From Terriglobales bacterium (GTDB lineage Bacteria > Acidobacteriota > Terriglobia > Terriglobales > Acidobacteriaceae): 64,000 bases of DNA. Where the stretch lies: contig JAICWP010000010.1 in the NCBI GenBank assembly GCA_025934735.1, positions 124,001-188,000 on the forward strand, written 5' to 3'. Shown one piece after another: positions 1 to 8,223 of the stretch. The stretch's first letter is position 1. Each line of letters begins with the position of its first letter. The translations under genes and the position numbers were made by a program. The notes under the pieces were generated by a model. The model was not told where the DNA came from and did not search any database. It saw nothing but the letters and a program-made list of their open reading frames with translations.

Positions 1-339
1 GCTCACTCCGCACAGCGTCAGCAGGTAAATCAGCAGGATGACGTCGCCTGCCAGGTTCAGAGGCGCGCCGAAGCCCATGGGCAGCAGGCACGCTACCGCC
101 AGCACTGCTGCCAGCGACAGCCACGCGGCTAAGCGCTGCATGCCCGGTGTTTCCCCGGATTCGATGTCTTCCTTGCCCAGCAGCTTCAGCAGATCGAAAT
201 ACGGCTGCAGCAGCGGCGGTCCCTGCCGCGATTGAATGCGGGCGGTGATTCTGCGCATCACCCCATGCAGCAGGGGCGCCAGCGACAGCACCAGCGCTAT
301 GTTCAGCGCGCTGCCGAAAATTGCCCAAACCACCTGCAT
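1..339 (-). CDS. hyfC: HyfC/HycD-like hydrogenase membrane subunit (NuoH family), partial
   Basis: This is the N-terminal 113 residues of a membrane subunit of a group 4 [NiFe]-hydrogenase, cut by the window edge. In this family the protein anchors the hydrogenase arm and forms part of the ion path, as NuoH does in complex I. The sequence shows a first membrane helix, then the loop RRITARIQSRQGPPLLQPY followed by DLLKLLGKEDI, a signature of HyfC/HycD, then two further hydrophobic stretches. ATG at 337-339 lies four bases after the stop of the large-subunit gene, so it is the last visible member of the operon. The rest of the gene, and presumably the small subunit and ferredoxin genes, lie outside the window. 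Recognition is firm; Hyf versus Hyc naming is arbitrary. Confidence 0.88.
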   Translation of the reverse strand, partial: MQVVWAIFGSALNIALVLSLAPLLHGVMRRITARIQSRQGPPLLQPYFDLLKLLGKEDIESGETPGMQRLAAWLSLAAVLAVACLLPMGFGAPLNLAGDVILLIYLLTLCGVS

Positions 340-343
340 GCCG

Positions 344-2017
344 TTACTTCTTTCCCTGGCTCAAGGCCAGCAGTTCCTTCTGCGGCCAGGTCTTCCTCTC
401 GCCCGAACGCAGTTCGATCGTCTCCATCCGGTCGGTGCAGGAAAAACATGGGTCAATGCTGCCCAGCGAAATCGTCATGTCGGCAATCTGCTGATCGCGA
501 ATCATGGCCGGCACCGCCTGCAGGTTCTGATAGGTGGGGGCGCGCACCCGCCAGCGCCGCGGCCGGTTGTTCTCCCCGGTGATGACGAAGTGATGGCTCT
601 CGCCCCGTGGCGCCTCCACCGACGACAGCCCGATGCGCCCCACCGGCAGCTCGTCCTTGATCTCCAGTTGCAGCGGACCGGGCTCCATCTTTTCCAGGCA
701 CTGCCGGATGATGGCAATGGACTCGAACACTTCCTTCATGCGCACCACCACCCGCGACCACACGTCGCATCCCGTCGCCGTGATGACCCGGAAATCCACC
801 CGGTCGTATGCGGCATACGGGTGGTCGCGCCGGCAATCAATATCTACGCCCGCCGCCCGCGCCACCGGGCCCACCGCCCCCGCGTTCTTCACCACGTTTC
901 TATCAGCCACGCCCACGCCTCGCGTGCGCTTCTGGATGTTCTTGTCGCGGCTGACCGCCCCAACCAGCGGCTCCCACTCGGCCTGCAGCTTGTTCAGCGT
1001 CTGGTTGAGCTCGGCCTTCAGTTCCGGCGTGATGTCCCAACGCACGCCGCCCACCACGCACAGCCCATAGGTTTTGCGGTTGCCGGTGATCTTTTCCGCC
1101 ATCCACATCACCGGTTCGCGGATACGGAACGCCTGCATGAACAGCGTGTCGAATCCCACGATGTGGCAGGCCAGCCCCACCCACAGCAGGTGGCTGTGCA
1201 GCCGCTCCATTTCCAGCAGGATAGTGCGGATGTACTCAGCTCGAGGCGGCGGGCGGAGAGCCGCCGCGGCCTCCACCGCCTGCGTGTAAGCCACGCTGTG
1301 CACGCAGCCGCAGATGCCGCAGATGCGCTCTGCCAGCACCGGTATATCGTTGTAGCTCATTACCGATTCCGCCAGCTTCTCAATGCCGCGGTGTGCCATG
1401 AAGCCGCGGTACTCGCAGCCCCGCACCATCTCCCCTTCCACGTACAGCCGGAAATGCGCCGGCTCATCCAGGGTGGGATGGAAAGGACCGAAAGGCACCA
1501 CCGTGCAGCCCTCCGGCGTCTTCTCGAATTCGAAGCTGGCTCCTTCTTTGAACTCCGGTGGCACGTGATTCCAGGGCACGTCCTTGCGCAGCGGGTGCAC
1601 GTCTTCCGGCCAGCCATCCGGCAGCACCAGCCGCTTGGGATAGGGATGGCCCACCGACTCAATGCCCACCAGGTCGCGCATCTCGCGCTCTGCCCAGTTG
1701 GCTGCCGGCACCACCCCGGAAATGCTCTCGATTTTTGGCTCATCTCCTGGAAGCTGCGCCAGCAGGCTGCACAGCACATGGTCCGTGTCGAAGGCAAAGT
1801 CATGGGCCACGATGAATTTGCCGGAAAACGGCCGGTCATCGGCGCCGATGCTGATCACATAGCGTGCGTCCAGATCGCGGAAGATGTGCCGGCATAGCTC
1901 CTTTACGGCCTCGGGCTGCACCCATACAAACAGCTGGCGGTCGCTGGGCAGGTCGGCGCGCAAAATGGCGCTGCCGAACTTGTCCTTCAGCTGGTTGAGC
2001 CGTTCTCGCGCGATCAT
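344..2017 (-). CDS. hycE: Group 4 [NiFe]-hydrogenase large subunit (HycE/HyfG-like, NuoC-NuoD fusion)
   Basis: Catalytic subunit of a membrane-bound hydrogenase, 557 residues. Residues about 1-150 are a NuoC-like 30-kDa domain and the rest is the NuoD/large-subunit domain, the fusion seen in formate hydrogenlyase HycE. Both NiFe-binding motifs are intact: ERICGIC gives Cys233 and Cys236, and DPCFSCTDR gives Cys524 and Cys527, so the protein should bind a NiFe centre, unlike complex I NuoD. It ends about 33 residues after the second motif, so there is no long C-terminal peptide of the kind that maturation proteases remove; group 4 enzymes vary in this. ATG at 2015-2017 overlaps the hyfB stop by four bases, which suggests translational coupling. 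Proton reduction or H2 oxidation at the cytoplasmic face is inferred from the family. Confidence 0.93.
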   Translation of the reverse strand: MIARERLNQLKDKFGSAILRADLPSDRQLFVWVQPEAVKELCRHIFRDLDARYVISIGADDRPFSGKFIVAHDFAFDTDHVLCSLLAQLPGDEPKIESISGVVPAANWAEREMRDLVGIESVGHPYPKRLVLPDGWPEDVHPLRKDVPWNHVPPEFKEGASFEFEKTPEGCTVVPFGPFHPTLDEPAHFRLYVEGEMVRGCEYRGFMAHRGIEKLAESVMSYNDIPVLAERICGICGCVHSVAYTQAVEAAAALRPPPRAEYIRTILLEMERLHSHLLWVGLACHIVGFDTLFMQAFRIREPVMWMAEKITGNRKTYGLCVVGGVRWDITPELKAELNQTLNKLQAEWEPLVGAVSRDKNIQKRTRGVGVADRNVVKNAGAVGPVARAAGVDIDCRRDHPYAAYDRVDFRVITATGCDVWSRVVVRMKEVFESIAIIRQCLEKMEPGPLQLEIKDELPVGRIGLSSVEAPRGESHHFVITGENNRPRRWRVRAPTYQNLQAVPAMIRDQQIADMTISLGSIDPCFSCTDRMETIELRSGERKTWPQKELLALSQGKK

Positions 2018-3999
2018 GACGTCCGTCCCTTCACGACAGCAACCTTGCCGTTCTCGGCCCCGCCTACCCAGTGGAAGTGGCGCTTCACCTCGCTGTAGAA
2101 ATTATGAGCAATGTAGCGGTCGCACTCTGCCTCCGTGGCGTATCCGCATAGCCACGGTGCGGCGGCTCGCCTGGGTGCCGAACCCATTCTTGAAATTCCA
2201 TAAGCGACGAGGAAGCCCACCCCCAGCGCGGCCAGCAATCCTGCCGGCACAAATACAGCCGTGCCCAGCGGCCCTGTGACTCCGCTCAGCACTCCGGCGG
2301 AAACTGGTGCCGCCTGGGCCAGCAGCGCGCCTGCGCCCTGCGGTGTAGCGGCAATCGCCCGCTGCAGAATCCCAAATGCCACTCCGGGCGCCAGTCCCAG
2401 CAGCACGCAGCACAACGCCAGCACGATTTGCGGCAGCTGCATGCTCCACCCCACCTCCAACTTTCCAGTACCGGCGCTGCCTGCGTTGGCAAGGCTTGTG
2501 TGTGCACGGCTTGTGTGGGCACGGGGCTCTGCCCCGTGCAGGGCGGGTCGCAGACCCGCCTTCTCAGCCACCAATTCACTCGTCCTGGAAAGGAAACTGG
2601 TGCCAAAAAACTTAATGAACGATGCCAGCGTGATTCCGCTGGTCAGGATCCCGATAGCGGCGCACACGGCCAGGTACTTGGCCGAACCTGCGCCCTGAAT
2701 GGCGGCCACAAATATCGCCCACTTGCTGGCAAAGCCGTTGAACAGCGGCACGCCGGAAATGGCCAGCGAGCCCACCAGCGCCGTCACTCCGGTCAGCGGC
2801 ATGTACTTCATCAACCCGCCCAGCCGGTTCAGATCCTGTGTGCCGGTAGCATGCAGCATGGAACCGGCATTCAGAAACAACAGGCCCTTGAAAAGTCCAT
2901 GGTTCAGTACATGGAACAGAGCGCCAATCAAGCCCAGCATGGCCAGAGTGCCTGCCTCTGGGCCCGCGGGCAACAGCGCCATGCAAGCGCCCAGCCCCAG
3001 CAGGATGTAGCCGATCTGCCCGATGCTGTGGAAGGCCAGCAGCCGCTTCGATTCCTCCTGCTTCAATGCCTGCATGGTTCCGGTGAAAAGCGTTACCGTC
3101 CCCAGCACTGTAACCACCACGCCCCAGCGCGCTAGCGGAAAATCGTCCTGGGCCGTTGCTGGCACCAGCCAGAGGAAATAGCGCATCACGCCATATACGC
3201 CGGTCTTGATCATTACTCCGGAGAGCAGGGCGCTGACCGGCGAGGGCGCAGCGGGATGCGCATCCGGTAACCACATCTGCCCGAATGGCCACATCCCCAT
3301 CTTGATTCCGAACCCGATGAGAAAAAGTGTGAACGCCAGCGCCACCGTGCCCGGGTGCGCGCTCAACAGCGCCGGTAGGTTCGCCCTGACGCTGGCAAAC
3401 TCAAATCGGGCCCCTCCTCCGGAGGGGGCCAGCAATGCCGAGCCGACCATGATGGCGGCGCAGGCAATCTGCATCATGACCAGAAACTTGCGGCTGGCTC
3501 TTCGATTCTGCTCCTTCCGGTATTCAAACCGGATCAGTATGTAGCCTGGCAGAGTCATCAGCTGCCAAAACACCAGGAAGGACCACATCGTGTCCGTCGT
3601 GCTCAGCAATCCATACATTGCCGCCAAAAAGAGCAGCAAGCAGGGATAGTACCGGCGCACGCCGTAATCGGCGTAGTGCTCCATGTAGCGGATGGAATAC
3701 AATGCCGCCGGCAAAGCGATGCCCGCAGCCAGCACCAGGAAAACAATCGCTAATCCATCTACGTGCAGGCGAAACGAAATGGCATACGCGGGCGCTGCCC
3801 ACAACTTCAATGGTTCAGCGGAGGGCCCATGAAGCAGAACTTCGCACGCGCCGCCAAATATCAGGATTGATGATGCCGCGGTGGCCGCGAACGCCAGCCA
3901 GCCGCTCATCGCCTTGCTGCGCGCGGTCAGTAACGCAATCGCCGAGCCGGCGAAGCAGGTCACGATGGCGGCAAACACGGCTTGTTCCGGCGTCATCAT
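2014..3999 (-). CDS. hyfB: HyfB/HycC-like proton-translocating membrane subunit (NuoL/M family)
   Basis: Antiporter-like membrane subunit of 661 residues with many hydrophobic helices, expected to carry ion flow coupled to the hydrogenase. The family core is clear: GFGIKMGMWPFGQMWLPDAH followed by PAAPSPVSALLSG, with the helix-7 lysine present. Two oddities are visible. In the helix-5 motif, where relatives read FWE, this protein reads FWQLMTLPGY with Gln146 (codon CAG near 3562). About residues 481-510, in a hydrophilic loop before the final helices, the protein is encoded by a palindromic repeat element at 2511-2562 that also occurs between genes elsewhere in the window. Start ATG at 3997-3999 overlaps the upstream stop by four bases. 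Function by homology is secure; whether it pumps normally is open. Confidence 0.92.
   Translation of the reverse strand: MMTPEQAVFAAIVTCFAGSAIALLTARSKAMSGWLAFAATAASSILIFGGACEVLLHGPSAEPLKLWAAPAYAISFRLHVDGLAIVFLVLAAGIALPAALYSIRYMEHYADYGVRRYYPCLLLFLAAMYGLLSTTDTMWSFLVFWQLMTLPGYILIRFEYRKEQNRRASRKFLVMMQIACAAIMVGSALLAPSGGGARFEFASVRANLPALLSAHPGTVALAFTLFLIGFGIKMGMWPFGQMWLPDAHPAAPSPVSALLSGVMIKTGVYGVMRYFLWLVPATAQDDFPLARWGVVVTVLGTVTLFTGTMQALKQEESKRLLAFHSIGQIGYILLGLGACMALLPAGPEAGTLAMLGLIGALFHVLNHGLFKGLLFLNAGSMLHATGTQDLNRLGGLMKYMPLTGVTALVGSLAISGVPLFNGFASKWAIFVAAIQGAGSAKYLAVCAAIGILTSGITLASFIKFFGTSFLSRTSELVAEKAGLRPALHGAEPRAHTSRAHTSLANAGSAGTGKLEVGWSMQLPQIVLALCCVLLGLAPGVAFGILQRAIAATPQGAGALLAQAAPVSAGVLSGVTGPLGTAVFVPAGLLAALGVGFLVAYGISRMGSAPRRAAAPWLCGYATEAECDRYIAHNFYSEVKRHFHWVGGAENGKVAVVKGRTS
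2511..2562. repeat. Interspersed double-hairpin element R1, copy A, inside hyfB
   Basis: Two perfect stem-loops side by side. The first has 9-bp arms at 2519-2527 and 2531-2539 with loop TCT; the second has 8-bp arms at 2542-2549 and 2553-2560 with loop GCA. The same architecture occurs at 9632-9677 and 17168-17215. This copy is in frame within hyfB and is translated there as a Pro/Ala/His/Thr-rich stretch. A partial duplicate of its left edge (TTGTGTG...GCACGG) lies just before it. Confidence 0.85.
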
Positions 4000-4499
4000 G
4001 CCGTTACCTTCTCGGGCAGGTACATCAGCTCTGGCGGTGTTTTGGCGCCGTAGAAAATCTGGATACGGTCGTAGTACTCACGGTGCTGCAGCGCGTACAC
4101 AATGCACGAGCGCAGCGGAATCAGGCCGATGCCGCCGGCCACGAACACCAGATCCTTACCGTAGTACTCCTCCATGGGGAAACCGTTGCCATAAGGGCCC
4201 CGCACCGCGAACTTCTGTCCCGGTTGCAACTCGTCCAGCGCCGCGGTGCAGCTGCCCACTTTGCGGATGGTGAAGAAGGTGTCCTCTTCCCCCGGGCTGG
4301 AGGGCAGGGAAGCGGGAAATTCGCCCACACCGAACAGCGAAATTTGCGCGAATTGGCCGGGACGGAATTTATGGAAGGCCTGCTGCTCTTCCGCATCTTC
4401 AAAGTGCCAGTAGAAAGTCTTCACCTCGGGAATTTCCGGCAGCACCCGCTCCAGCACCGCCGGCTTAGGCAAATAGACGTTCTGCATGGCCGCGCTCAT
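3996..4499 (-). CDS. Sulfhydrogenase gamma-like FAD/NAD oxidoreductase, C-terminally truncated
   Basis: A 167-residue protein matching the first part of the sulfhydrogenase gamma subunit (HydG; ferredoxin-reductase fold). Visible are the FAD-binding motif FRPGQFAQISLFGVGEFP, RGPYGNGFP and the start of the nucleotide-binding domain, VFVAGGIGLIPLRS. It stops at ELMYLPEKVTA, shortly after the second strand of that domain. Family members are near 290 residues, so roughly the last 120 are missing, including the rest of the NAD(P) site and the Cys-rich 2Fe-2S segment. The stop overlaps the hyfB start (ATGA), and the next bases are fully used by hyfB, so this is not a simple frameshift. ATG at 4497-4499 overlaps the preceding gene's stop. 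It may still bind FAD; NAD(P) reduction seems unlikely as it stands. Confidence 0.85.
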   Translation of the reverse strand: MSAAMQNVYLPKPAVLERVLPEIPEVKTFYWHFEDAEEQQAFHKFRPGQFAQISLFGVGEFPASLPSSPGEEDTFFTIRKVGSCTAALDELQPGQKFAVRGPYGNGFPMEEYYGKDLVFVAGGIGLIPLRSCIVYALQHREYYDRIQIFYGAKTPPELMYLPEKVTA

Positions 4500-5572
4500 C
4501 GCGCCTCCGCCTGCGCCGCTGCCCGCCGGATCATCTCCACCACCGTGGGCATCCCGATGTCGCCGTGGCACACTGCGGCGCAGCGGCCGCAGCCCACGCA
4601 GGCCACGGAAAGCTCGCGCTGGATGAAGTAGTGCGAAAGTTTGCGGAAGAAGCGTCGGTTGCGCCGGTCGTGGACCGCCCGCCGCGGGTTGAACCCGCCC
4701 GCCATGCGCGTAAACCCGCCCAGCGCGCAGGAATCCCAGGTCCGCACCCGCTCCACTTCCTTCACCCCGGTGCGCCGGTCGCTCACCGTGAAACAGGTGC
4801 ACGCCGGGCACACATAGGTGCAGCCGCCGCATTCCAGGCAGCGCTGCCCGATCTCTTCCCAGGTCTTTTCTGTGACCTTGTCCTGCGAAACGTACCGCAC
4901 CGCGCCAGAAAACCAGCTGGTCATGGTGCTCTCGAAATGCCCCCGTAGTCGCTCCAGGATGGCGCGCCGCTTCTCCACATGCTCGTCTGTCCCCTTCCGG
5001 AAGATAGGGTTGGCCAGCAGCGACTCGCCGGCGGGGGTGCCGGCCACCGCCATGAACTCCTCACCCAGATCCATCAATTGAAGGTCGAAGTGGTCGCGCG
5101 CGGCCGGGCCCGTGTCGGCGCACATGCAGAAGCATTCTTTGCCGATATCACGCTCGCGATCGGTGCAGACCAGGTTGATCAGCAGCAGGTTGCGCCGCCG
5201 CTTCTCGTAGTAAATGTCGCTGAATTCCTTCCCTAGGAAGAAGCGGTCCAGGTGGTAGATGCCGGCCACGTCGCAGGACCGGATCCCGAAAATGGCCCGC
5301 TTGGGTGCTTCGTACGTTGGCTCGATGCGCAGGTCGCCGTTGCAGCGCTCCACCTTCATCAGGCGCTCGATATGGGGTAACACAAACCGCTTCGGCGGGT
5401 AATACGGGTTGGGCAGGTGGATTTGGATATGCTCCCGGTTGTCATCGGTCACCGTGTCGAAGCAGGTGTCCCGCCCGCGCCCGCAAAATGGCGCCAGAAC
5501 CTCGTAGCCCTGCCCGCGCAGCAGGTCCACCACGGCCAGCACGTCCGCGCTGCGCAGCACCCGCGCTTTCAT
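4496..5572 (-). CDS. Sulfhydrogenase beta-like 4Fe-4S protein (HydB/AsrA family)
   Basis: A 358-residue electron-transfer protein of the family that holds the sulfhydrogenase beta subunit and anaerobic sulfite reductase subunit A. Typical marks are IFGIRSCDVAGIYHLDRFFL near residues 94-113, ECFCMCADTGP near 147, and two C-terminal ferredoxin-type clusters: CLECGGCTYVCPACTCF (residues 245-261) and CVGCGRCAAVCHGDIGMP (325-342). In archaeal sulfhydrogenase this subunit passes electrons between the hydrogenase and the flavin subunit gamma. Here it sits between a molybdoenzyme gene and the truncated gamma gene, with four-base overlaps on both sides, so it probably wires the molybdoenzyme to the hydrogenase. 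Start ATG at 5570-5572. The family is well recognised; the exact partners are inferred. Confidence 0.88.
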   Translation of the reverse strand: MKARVLRSADVLAVVDLLRGQGYEVLAPFCGRGRDTCFDTVTDDNREHIQIHLPNPYYPPKRFVLPHIERLMKVERCNGDLRIEPTYEAPKRAIFGIRSCDVAGIYHLDRFFLGKEFSDIYYEKRRRNLLLINLVCTDRERDIGKECFCMCADTGPAARDHFDLQLMDLGEEFMAVAGTPAGESLLANPIFRKGTDEHVEKRRAILERLRGHFESTMTSWFSGAVRYVSQDKVTEKTWEEIGQRCLECGGCTYVCPACTCFTVSDRRTGVKEVERVRTWDSCALGGFTRMAGGFNPRRAVHDRRNRRFFRKLSHYFIQRELSVACVGCGRCAAVCHGDIGMPTVVEMIRRAAAQAEAR

Positions 5573-7587
5573 GCGGCCTCCTTCTCCAGCCGCACCGGCA
5601 CCAGTTGGCTGCGATCAGCTGCGTTGTGAAGCAGTTTCTTCTCCACCTCGCGCAGGAAGTAGGGCACAAAGATCGTGCCGCTCATCACTTCCGGCGTGAC
5701 CCGCGCGGTAGCTTCCGCGGCAGCAGCCTCGGTCCTGAGTCGAACTTTCTGCCCATCTCGAATGCCCAGCTGCTTTGCGTCCTCACTGTTGATCTCGACA
5801 AAGCCTTGCGGGTAATCCAGCCACAGGACGCGGTATTCCCGTTTGAGCGTCTCGCTGTGCCGGACGAGCACGTCTTGTGCCCAGTAATAAAGTGAGCTGC
5901 CAAAAAACAACCGGAAGGGAAACTCCGTGGCATTTGCAATCTGCGGCGGCCTGGGAACCGCGGCGAACTTGAACTTCGTGCCGTTATCGGCAAACAAGTA
6001 GCGCGTGCCCAGCGGCCGGTCCTTGGTGCAGGGCCACTGCCGCCCATATTCGCGTTCCAGGTTCTCGTAGCTGGCCCCGCTGTAGAAGGGAACCGCTTTG
6101 CCGATTTCCTCCATTACCTGGGCCGCGGAGGTGTAATCCCAATTCGCGCCCAGCAGGCGCGCCACTCTCGTCAGCTGTTGCCACGCCGGTATCAGCCCCG
6201 GCGCTGGCTCGATGACCTTTTGTGCTAATTGAATCCGCCGTTCCGTGCTGGTGAACGACACCTCCTCTTCGCCGTAGGCAGTGGTAGGCAGCACCACGTC
6301 CGCCAAGCGGGCTGCCTCGGTCATGAACAACTGCTGGATTACAAGCAGTTCGCGGTTGCGAAACAACCCCGCTGTCTCCTCCAGGCCGGCGGCGCTGGCT
6401 GGGTCGTACTGGCATACCCAGAGCCCCTTCACATGAGAGTCAGCGCCATTGCCCAGCAAAGAGCCAGCCTGCAGGCCGGGAGCGGATGGCAACTTTGCCT
6501 GCCACAGCGTCTCTAATTCCGCCCGGGCGCTCGCATCATCCACGCGCCGGTAACCGGGCAGGCGATCGGGCAGCATACCCATGTCGCAAACCCCCTGCAG
6601 GTTGTTCTGCTCGCTCAGGGCCAGAATTCCCGCCCCAGGTTTGCCCATGTTGCCGGTGAGCAGCGCCAGATTCACCACCGCGCGGATGGTGTCGCGGCTG
6701 CGCGCTTCCATGCTGGTGGAATACAGAAGGGTGGCGGCGCGCGCGTGCGCAAACTCCACGGCGGCGCCTTCGATCGCCTCCGCCGGGATGCCGCAGGCTT
6801 CCGCGGCATGCAGCAGGTCGTATTCCCGCACCTGCTGCAGGAAATCCTCATAATTGCGGCAGCGCGCCTTGACAAACCCCAGGTCCATCAGCCCGCGGTC
6901 CACGATCACCTTGGCCATGGCGCCGTAGAGCGGCACTTCGGTGCCTGGCCGGATCTGCAGAAATCTGTCAGCGTTTTCCGCCACCCGATGGCGGCGCGTC
7001 CCGATCACCATCAGCTTGGCTCCCCTCAGCTTGGCGCGGATGACGGCGCCTCCCACCGTTGGCATGCGGCGGCCCAGGTCCACCCCGTCCACCACCACCA
7101 CGTCACTCTGCGCCAGGTCGGCAAGGGAGGTGCTGGCCGCGGCCACACCCGTCATTTCCAGCAGCACATCAATGGAGTTGTTGCAGAAAACTCCGCTGCC
7201 CTGGTCCACGTTGTTGGTGCCAATCACCGCCCGGGCTAACTTCTGCAGGAGGTAGGTATCCTCATTGGAGCAGCGCGGCGAATTCAGGAAAGCTATGGCA
7301 TCAGGCCCGTGCCGCTTGCGGATTTGCTGTAGCCGGGCCGCCACGAACTCGAAAGCCTCATCCCATTCCGCTTCCTCCAGTTCGCCGTGTTTCTTCAATA
7401 ATGGCTTCTTGAGGCGCTCGGCTGAGCTGGCGATTTCGTGCACGTGCCAGCCGCGCACGCAGATCTTGCCCTGATTGGTGGGATGAGAAACGCTGGGGTA
7501 GACCCCGATAACCCGGTTATCGGAGGTCTCCAGGTATAGGCCGCAGCCGACCCCGCAGTAGGTGCAGGTCGTCAACCGATGGGCCAT
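5569..7587 (-). CDS. Formate-dehydrogenase-H-like molybdopterin oxidoreductase
   Basis: A 672-residue member of the Mo/W-bis-MGD family. The N-terminal 4Fe-4S cluster is ligated by Cys8, Cys11, Cys15 and Cys43. The stretch NNLQGVCDMGMLPDRLPGY closely resembles E. coli FdhF, and the C-terminal MGD domain is present. Two key positions differ. The residue after Cys43 plus one is Arg45 (CVRG) where formate dehydrogenases have Lys. At the metal site the sequence reads NNVDQGSGVFCNNS: Cys135 is one position later than the FdhF selenocysteine, and the following His is Asn136. Formate may not be the substrate. A strong ribosome site (AGGAGG) precedes ATG at 7585-7587. As first gene of the operon it probably supplies electrons to the HydB-like protein and the hydrogenase. 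No signal peptide, so cytoplasmic. Confidence 0.88.
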   Translation of the reverse strand: MAHRLTTCTYCGVGCGLYLETSDNRVIGVYPSVSHPTNQGKICVRGWHVHEIASSAERLKKPLLKKHGELEEAEWDEAFEFVAARLQQIRKRHGPDAIAFLNSPRCSNEDTYLLQKLARAVIGTNNVDQGSGVFCNNSIDVLLEMTGVAAASTSLADLAQSDVVVVDGVDLGRRMPTVGGAVIRAKLRGAKLMVIGTRRHRVAENADRFLQIRPGTEVPLYGAMAKVIVDRGLMDLGFVKARCRNYEDFLQQVREYDLLHAAEACGIPAEAIEGAAVEFAHARAATLLYSTSMEARSRDTIRAVVNLALLTGNMGKPGAGILALSEQNNLQGVCDMGMLPDRLPGYRRVDDASARAELETLWQAKLPSAPGLQAGSLLGNGADSHVKGLWVCQYDPASAAGLEETAGLFRNRELLVIQQLFMTEAARLADVVLPTTAYGEEEVSFTSTERRIQLAQKVIEPAPGLIPAWQQLTRVARLLGANWDYTSAAQVMEEIGKAVPFYSGASYENLEREYGRQWPCTKDRPLGTRYLFADNGTKFKFAAVPRPPQIANATEFPFRLFFGSSLYYWAQDVLVRHSETLKREYRVLWLDYPQGFVEINSEDAKQLGIRDGQKVRLRTEAAAAEATARVTPEVMSGTIFVPYFLREVEKKLLHNAADRSQLVPVRLEKEAA

Positions 7588-7627
7588 GCCACCCTCCTAA
7601 GTCCTTTGCCCCTGCGGACAAACCCCC

Positions 7628-7680
7628 AACATTCTGATGTTAGGCAGCCAGCAGGGCAGCGAGCGGTGACTGGGGTCACC
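7628..7680. promoter_or_regulatory. Two inverted repeats between the hydrogenase operon and the RsbW-like gene
   Basis: The divergent intergenic stretch 7588-7776 holds AACAT-TCTG-ATGTT at 7628-7641 and GGTGAC-TGGG-GTCACC at 7665-7680. Both are perfect dyads with four-base centres, the geometry of a dimeric regulator site. They lie about 40-95 bases upstream of the hydrogenase operon start. No clear sigma-70 or sigma-54 promoter hexamers could be assigned. Regulatory role is inference. Confidence 0.35.
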
Positions 7681-7776
7681 TGGGAGCGTGACTTTCGTCC
7701 ATACTTTCGCCCAAAAAGGAACTCACCTCAGCTACAATGCCCCAGAGTTCTTCATTTCCGCAGCTCGGGATCGCTC

Positions 7777-8223
7777 ATGACCGATTCGGGCAATTCACAG
7801 TGTGCCTTTGAAGGCAAGAAGTTGAAGGTGCAGGTGGATATCACCATCACCGCTCACCTTGAGTCCATCTCGCCGGTGGTGCAAGCCATTCTCGCGCTCG
7901 CCCGTGAAATGAAGTGTGCTGTGGGCAAGGAGTTCGAGATTGAGACTGCCGTCCGCGAGTCGCTGGCCAACGCCATACGTCATGGCTGCGGCGAAGATTC
8001 CTCCAAGCGAGTGGAGTGCTGTGTGGCCTGCGACGAAGCTCACGGCATGTTGATCGTGGTCCGTGATCCCGGTCCCGGCTTCGATCCCGCTTCCATTCCC
8101 AACCCCATCGTGGGCGACAATATTTACTCCAACCACGGGCGCGGGATCTATCTGATCAATCAGTTGATGGATGAAGTTCGCTTCGAGCGCGGCGGCAGGG
8201 AAATCCACATGCGCAAGCAGTAG
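7777..8223 (+). CDS. RsbW-like anti-sigma factor / serine-protein kinase (HATPase domain)
   Basis: A 148-residue GHKL ATPase-fold protein. The N box is ESLANAIRHG, the G1 box DPGPGFDP and the G2 box NHGRGIYLI, in the order seen in RsbW/SpoIIAB-type kinases. Such proteins phosphorylate anti-anti-sigma factors and hold an alternative sigma factor, or act as stand-alone response kinases. The ATG at 7777 is preferred because the protein family starts about here; the longer reading frame to 7579 would encode an unrelated Arg/Pro-rich extension over the intergenic region. No partner sigma or antagonist gene is adjacent, so the target cannot be named. It diverges from the hydrogenase operon. Confidence 0.85.
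   Translation: MTDSGNSQCAFEGKKLKVQVDITITAHLESISPVVQAILALAREMKCAVGKEFEIETAVRESLANAIRHGCGEDSSKRVECCVACDEAHGMLIVVRDPGPGFDPASIPNPIVGDNIYSNHGRGIYLINQLMDEVRFERGGREIHMRKQ

Follow-up and report, generated by a model that had tools for sequence, protein, structure and literature searches.

An operon and its relatives

A 64,000-nucleotide stretch of the genome of a Terriglobales bacterium from the family Acidobacteriaceae (assembly GCA_025934735.1, contig JAICWP010000010.1, positions 124,001 to 188,000), here called the window, opens with genes for a membrane-bound hydrogenase. Six open reading frames (ORFs) fill positions 1-7587 of its minus strand and are transcribed in the order Mop (an FdhF-like molybdopterin protein), HydB, HydG, HyfB, HycE and HyfC (Table 1). 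A preliminary description of this DNA had recognized in them a hybrid of parts usually found in separate systems, and both the ORFs and their family matches bear out these six genes and their mixed order. The first five are joined by exact 4-base overlaps (5569-5572, 4496-4499, 3996-3999 and 2014-2017), as had been described, and HycE and HyfC are 4 bases apart. The HydG frame lies within a longer ORF of the list; we set its start at 4499. A Shine-Dalgarno-like AGGAGGGTGGC precedes the ATG of the Mop gene. Among the matches listed, all six proteins fall below the curated NCBIfam cut-offs (565 of 666 bits for Fdh-alpha, 139 of 750 for HydB).

The operon continues to the left of the window, where the gene for the hydrogenase small subunit had been predicted to lie and was indeed found. 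The preliminary description also proposed looking there for hyfF and maturation genes; neither these nor a gene for HycB were present among the ten ORFs scanned there. Among all ORFs scanned in the window and this extension there is one antiporter-like subunit and no ferredoxin of the HycB/HyfA type. The gene next after HyfI encodes an M13 peptidase unrelated to the operon.

Table 1. The operon and its extension; negative positions lie left of the window on the same contig (locus L009)
Feature	Position in window coordinates	Strand	Remarks
Mop, FdhF-like molybdopterin protein	5569-7587	minus	672 aa; [4Fe-4S] Cys kept, formate dehydrogenase active-site residues gone
HydB/AsrA-like iron-sulfur subunit	4496-5572	minus	358 aa; Fer4_22 4e-27; Cys motifs of two [4Fe-4S] clusters and further conserved Cys
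hydG remnant	3996-4499	minus	167 aa; no Pfam match; 136 bits to PRK08345, residues 6-162
Putative deletion junction region	3997-4020	minus	hydG head enters the frame in which relatives' hycI ends; stop overlaps hyfB start
HyfB-type antiporter-like membrane subunit	2014-3999	minus	661 aa; 389 bits to hydrogenase 4 subunit B
HycE-type [NiFe] large subunit, NuoC+NuoD-like	344-2017	minus	557 aa; 439 bits to E. coli formate hydrogenlyase subunit 5
HyfC-type membrane anchor	1-339	minus	N-terminal 113 aa in window; continues to L009:15419, 306 aa total
HyfC end, left of window	near -581		window's own contig, L009
HyfH/HycF-type ferredoxin	about -1121 to -681		146 aa; L009
HyfI/HycG-type small subunit	about -1664 to -1128		178 aa; L009

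Comparison with other genomes shows the window's genes to belong to a conserved operon of nine genes, which specifies a membrane-bound [NiFe] hydrogenase of the HycE/HyfG type (group 4) and which is damaged in this copy. The order Mop-HydB-HydG-HycI-HyfB-HycE-HyfC-HyfH-HyfI is kept in the window's own phylum and in Verrucomicrobia, so that the operon is common to bacteria of at least two phyla and the preliminary suggestion to look for the same order elsewhere has paid off. It is complete in genome G025 (locus L030), from the same family as the window genome, in G295 and G639, and in five more members of the family whose contigs are long enough to show it. A scan of genome contigs with two peptide patterns, which is not a census, returned 22 loci, 12 of which (L035-L046) are close relatives with HycE identities of 65-80%; they are labeled Verrucomicrobia or Limisphaerales (nine), Acidobacteriaceae (one, L037) or are unplaced (two). 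Eleven of these 12 keep the order from Mop to HyfH, with HyfI next in ten; L045 has only a piece of HyfI, on the opposite strand at a contig end, and in L037 a contig end cuts within hyfB, with HycE to HyfI present. When whole genomes were searched with a Mop alignment, close copies (E of at most 1e-200) turned up in 10 of 398 genomes from the family and 2 of 399 from the class. At the laxer E of 1e-150, 19 of 396 phylum genomes gave matches, 11 with this kind of operon and eight with formate dehydrogenase (FDH)-like genes. Nine of the 11 operons (L077-L081, L100-L103) form a more distant second clade with the same gene order, at identities of 34-37% for Mop, 37-42% for HydB and 50-53% for HydG; L103 ends inside hycE.

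The HycE of the window keeps the nickel motifs ERICGIC and DPCFSC and, as in relatives, a 27-residue C-terminal tail after DPCFSCTDR; the RxCGxC and DPCxxC ligands are likewise present in 13 relatives and in L076-L079 and L081. Of the 33 large subunits placed in a tree, the 19 from these operons group as a single clade (support 96/91) that is sister to E. coli HycE/HyfG (99/94), with the planctomycete locus L047 next, in a tree that has several long branches and holds no references for other group 4 subgroups. The cluster cysteines are conserved in HydB and in HyfH, which has at least two cluster motifs. In the operon, which lacks a HycB-type ferredoxin among its scanned ORFs, HydB is the best candidate for the wire that HycB would otherwise provide, a role the preliminary description had already proposed for it. 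Three loci from the pattern scan (L035, L039, L040) carry two HyfB-like antiporter genes in tandem rather than one, which may raise the number of protons translocated per electron pair.

A molybdoenzyme fold and a shortened HydG

The notion of a formate-driven molybdoenzyme, which the preliminary description implied, is not supported by inspection of Mop. Aligned with E. coli FdhF, the window protein has Phe in place of Sec140, Cys in place of His141, Ser in place of Arg333 and Arg in place of Lys44 (we take this numbering to be the usual one, and the letters at those positions of E. coli FdhF agree). All 23 aligned operon Mops keep the four N-terminal [4Fe-4S] cysteines, and all 23 have replaced Arg333 and Lys44; the position of Sec140 holds Y, F, H or G, in no copy Cys or Sec, and that of His141 holds His in two (L078, L081) and otherwise C, S, G, A, V, R, Q or L. 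In eight further copies Tyr stands in for Sec140 and Ser or Thr for Arg333. All 31 of the 31 operon Mop copies read have therefore lost both the metal ligand (Sec/Cys) and the Arg that binds formate. The predicted fold is nonetheless that of an FDH, the best Foldseek match in the PDB being E. coli FDH-H (1aa6, template modeling (TM) score 0.74); the model has a mean predicted local distance difference test score (pLDDT) of 69.9, is of low confidence at the N-terminus and near the active site, and served for the overall fold only. Mop is thus FdhF-like in fold and not in active site.

The distribution of FdhD points the same way. FDH carries a sulfido ligand whose formation depends on FdhD or the homologous FdsC, and enzyme produced in their absence was inactive (PMC10385643, PMC12140954); the abstract of one of these reports calls this ligand essential for activity (PMC12140954). 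FdhD (PF02634) was absent from all eight operon genomes tested, out of 20 with the operon or its start, and present in seven of eight control genomes, which belong to the window's phylum and have FDH-like genes of the ordinary kind (Fisher p 0.0014, counting genomes as independent despite their kinship). The controls are the eight non-operon genomes of the phylum search: the five loci inspected (all but those of G140, G341 and G067) match E. coli FdhF best, and the FDH genes of G169 and G067 contain an in-frame TGA resembling a selenocysteine codon.

The second departure from the preliminary description concerns HydG, the presumed flavin subunit, which in the window is a remnant. In G025 the protein has 282 residues, with an NAD_binding_1 domain and a DHODB-type [2Fe-2S] domain. 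The remnant retains the first half and part of the NAD domain, without the CGPP motif and without the [2Fe-2S] cysteines. Window DNA matches G025 hydG to about codon 163 and then jumps to the last bases before hyfB, which leaves it ~0.85 kb shorter, with the remainder of hydG and almost the whole of hycI gone. The remnant enters the hycI frame and stops within the usual overlap with hyfB, an outcome with a 1-in-3 chance. A full-length HydG (274-284 residues from the match start) is encoded in all 28 other operons in which the segment is readable (L030, L035, L036, L038-L046, L076-L081, L084, L093-L096, L098, L100-L103), so the window's version is no ordinary short form; 26 of the 28 carry hycI between the hydG and hyfB genes, and the [2Fe-2S] cysteines are present in 18 of 18 aligned full-length HydGs. 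The preliminary description had asked whether a full HydG exists elsewhere in the operon: it does in the relatives, and not in the window genome. The protein of the window scores 111 of 650 bits for NCBIfam HydG and that of L030 scores 196 of 650 (195 of 288.6 for AsrB), so that neither reaches an equivalog cut-off.

These losses bear on whether the window's hydrogenase can work. Its HycE is the only [NiFe] large subunit over cut-off in the genome, the other large-subunit matches being complex I-type proteins whose aligned C-termini lack DPCxxC. A hyp cluster on another contig is open, with HypD, HypE-type, HypA, HypB-type and HypF proteins by Pfam and a protein that we take to be HypC from its MCLAIPG start. 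In almost all [NiFe] hydrogenases, maturation is described as ending with the removal of the C-terminal tail by a specific protease (PMC6769069, available passages). The whole window genome gave no match to the HycI protease family PF01750, although a divergent protease could be missed, because the operon HycIs of three of three relatives scanned match that family only at 26-46 bits. With the second half of HydG gone, the window copy should lack its NAD(P)H port, and with hycI gone and no other HycI-family protease found, its large subunit should not mature. The window operon, then, is damaged or misassembled, and its product may be nonfunctional. A real loss would be a recent one and would leave the hydrogenase idle; otherwise the segment was dropped during assembly.

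L080, on contig C5 of G309, is a second damaged operon, with Mop, HydB, HydG, HycI and a shortened HyfB followed by other ORFs; matches to HycE, HyfC, HyfH and HyfI were not found after hyfB in that stretch. In L094 (5482-7364, G969) the HyfB match is split into residues 1-277 and 279-647 by a stop, a frameshift or a sequencing error, in an incomplete genome. Elsewhere in the window genome, three groups of NuoC/NuoD-type matches on contigs C8, C20 and C38 suggest three complex I-like gene sets.

A putative complex I-like hydrogenase and its alternatives

In the relatives, the electron-input arm consists of a HydG/AsrB-like subunit with NAD-binding and [2Fe-2S] domains, a HydB/AsrA-like [4Fe-4S] subunit and an FdhF-like protein without the FDH active site, and the membrane arm contains one or two antiporter-like subunits. 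We put a probability of about one half on the following reading: the undamaged operon specifies a group 4 hydrogenase that is linked to NAD(P)H and translocates protons, with a complex I-like layout and a NuoG-like Mop, and the window holds a damaged copy of it. Electrons would pass, in either direction, between NAD(P)H and HydG (FAD, [2Fe-2S]), and on through HydB, the [4Fe-4S] cluster of Mop, HyfH and HyfI to the [NiFe] site in HycE. NAD(P)H and protons/H2 would be interconverted along this wire and proton movement would be coupled to it through HyfB and HyfC. Mop would act as wire and scaffold in the place of NuoG, rather than as an oxidizer of formate. In the window genome, the putative loss of ~0.85 kb would have removed both the NAD(P)H port and large-subunit maturation.

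How a hydrogenase, a diaphorase and a NuoG resembling formate dehydrogenase came together as complex I has long been a question. We speculate, at a little under even odds, that an FDH was retired here from catalysis into a NuoG-like electron-transfer subunit of an NAD(P)H-linked, proton-translocating hydrogenase, independently of complex I, and that the window genome is losing the NAD(P)H port and the protease. If true, this would be a second outcome of complex I-like assembly, with the [NiFe] site intact, a different diaphorase and an FdhF-like subunit without its active site, and one accessible to biochemical study.

Several observations weigh against this reading. The 0.85-kb gap might have arisen in assembly, with the strain itself carrying a full operon; we consider this a serious contender, if on balance improbable. 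The intact HydG of all 28 other readable operons would fit such an error, as would the open reading frames of the other window subunits and of the hyp genes, and the 4.94-Mb genome is in 50 contigs. The assembly is also 99.83% complete and holds no piece of hycI elsewhere, and the junction lies inside a 196-kb contig, in a clean frame with the usual stop/start overlap, all of which speaks for a real loss. Relative-rate counts show a mild excess of window-unique changes versus L084, L036 and L038 and none versus G025; accelerated decay of the whole operon in the window lineage was set aside because the excess is missing in that last comparison, and a long history of operon decay is thus unsupported. 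In two distant operons as well, L078 and L081, nothing between hydG and hyfB matches HycI of G025.

A further set of observations concerns Mop. It scores 565 bits to FDH versus 127 to NuoG, which rules out that it is NuoG proper; it keeps pterin-binding domains (PF01568, 6e-15); it is well conserved, with a mean column identity of 76% over 13 rows; and MoaA-type synthesis of the molybdenum cofactor is present in four of four operon genomes tested. With its cofactor supply, its domains and its conservation, Mop may still bind Mo or W and act on some substrate. Arsenite oxidase has an open metal site without a protein ligand, and if Mop were a working enzyme of this kind for a substrate other than formate, its electrons would join those of NAD(P)H at HydB and proceed to the hydrogenase. 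The FDH-like predicted fold would also agree. Against this, the ligand position varies among Y, F, H and G and its neighbor among C, S, G, A, V, R, Q, H and L, as if free of catalytic constraint. In the planctomycete locus L047, moreover, Mop is much reduced, and scores 45.8 bits to NuoG versus 47.4 to Fdh; lying beside HydB-HydG, this degenerate Mop backs a trend to a NuoG-like link. We regard catalysis by Mop on another substrate as unlikely, while far from negligible.

The use of NAD(P) is suggested by family resemblance only, and HydB and HydG score almost equally to AsrA and AsrB. Their matches to both the sulfhydrogenase and the AsrA/AsrB families would allow an arm that reduces sulfur, polysulfide or sulfite, making the complex a membrane-bound sulfhydrogenase. 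Yet no gene for AsrC or another terminal reductase was found among the operon ORFs scanned, and in group 3b enzymes a diaphorase fold of the HydB-HydG kind serves NAD(P)H, so that we hold this version to be very doubtful. Least credible of all, and scarcely tenable, is a formate hydrogenlyase (FHL) with HydB in place of HycB: the nearest solved relatives are FDHs for Mop and FHL subunit 5 for HycE, TIGR01591 is the top NCBIfam match of Mop, and the fdhF and hyf operon of a peatland acidobacterial metagenome-assembled genome has been so named in print (PMC6018796, available passages), but Mop misses the Fdh-alpha cut-off, the Sec/Cys140 and Arg333 equivalents are gone from every copy read, and the operon genomes tested lack the FdhD on which the essential sulfido ligand depends (PMC10385643, PMC12140954). 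More generally, hidden Markov model matches alone can mislead the naming of FHL: finding 'fdhF plus hyf' in an environmental genome does not by itself establish that formate is used.

Related systems and neighboring genes

With FHL-1 and FHL-2 of E. coli the operons share HycE/HyfG, HycG/HyfI, HycF/HyfH, HycD/HyfC, HycC/HyfB and the HycI protease. They differ in that HycB/HyfA, HycH, HycA and HyfDEF were not found here, that HydB-HydG is added and that Mop lacks the FDH active site; the E. coli fdhF gene, unlike that of Mop, is unlinked to hydrogenase genes. The HydB and HydG families are those of the group 3b NAD(P)-linked hydrogenase (sulfhydrogenase) HydBGDA, whereas the catalytic subunits of the operon belong to group 4 and its HydB-HydG module sits with membrane subunits. 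HydB-HydG loci without the operon occur in other genomes of the window's class and order (L031-L033), and that of L033 adjoins a NiFe large subunit. Like respiratory complex I, with its diaphorase, NuoG, NuoB/C/D/I and membrane subunits, the operon combines a diaphorase, a Mop-derived iron-sulfur subunit and homologues of NuoB/C/D/I and of the membrane subunits. Unlike complex I, it has a HydG-type diaphorase, a Mop much nearer to FDH than to NuoG, and a HycE that retains its [NiFe] ligands (ERICGIC, DPCFSC), which rules out a NuoD-type protein without them.

In the fdh-mhy operon of Thermococcus litoralis an FDH-like gene also shares an operon with a membrane [NiFe] hydrogenase; there, according to the available passages, a FdhB/HycB-type ferredoxin is used and formate-dependent H2 evolution was detected (PMC2432063). 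The peatland acidobacterium whose 'fdhF, hyf operon' was named FHL by Hausmann et al. is known as the assembled genome SbA1 (PMC6018796). The nearest precedent we found is an enigmatic group 4 [NiFe] cluster of Saganbacteria RX5A (Matheus Carnevali et al. 2019, PMC6349859), compared here by its published description. As its published passages describe it, that cluster likewise combines a group 4 hydrogenase, antiporter-like subunits, an unclassifiable FDH-like molybdopterin protein and asrA/asrB, and its nearest relatives are in Zixibacteria and Omnitrophica; it also has cooF, whereas no CooF/HycB-type gene was found in the operons here, most of which carry hycI (PMC6349859). Among the matches listed in a literature search of titles, abstract starts and passages, with few subscription papers, the nine-gene arrangement was not described.

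The planctomycete locus L047 (2351-11556) has a different arrangement, HydB-HydG-degenerate Mop-HycB-like ferredoxin-HyfC-HyfI-split HycE-HyfB, and with its HycB-like ferredoxin is nearer to the published Saganbacteria layout. In a Limisphaerales genome (L042, 16256-21472) a second, divergent group 4-type set (HyfB, HyfC, HyfI, HycE and HyfH, 28-44% identity) follows ~2.3 kb after the operon. Directly upstream of the Mop gene of the window, a divergent gene (7579-8223, plus strand) encodes a HATPase_c_2 domain, like that of anti-sigma-factor kinases. At L077 (contig C3 of G438), the distant-clade operon stands between response-regulator genes and is followed by genes for histidine kinases, with cache domains and of other kinds, which suggests two-component control there; ORFs that by eye resemble these flanks adjoin L078 and L081.

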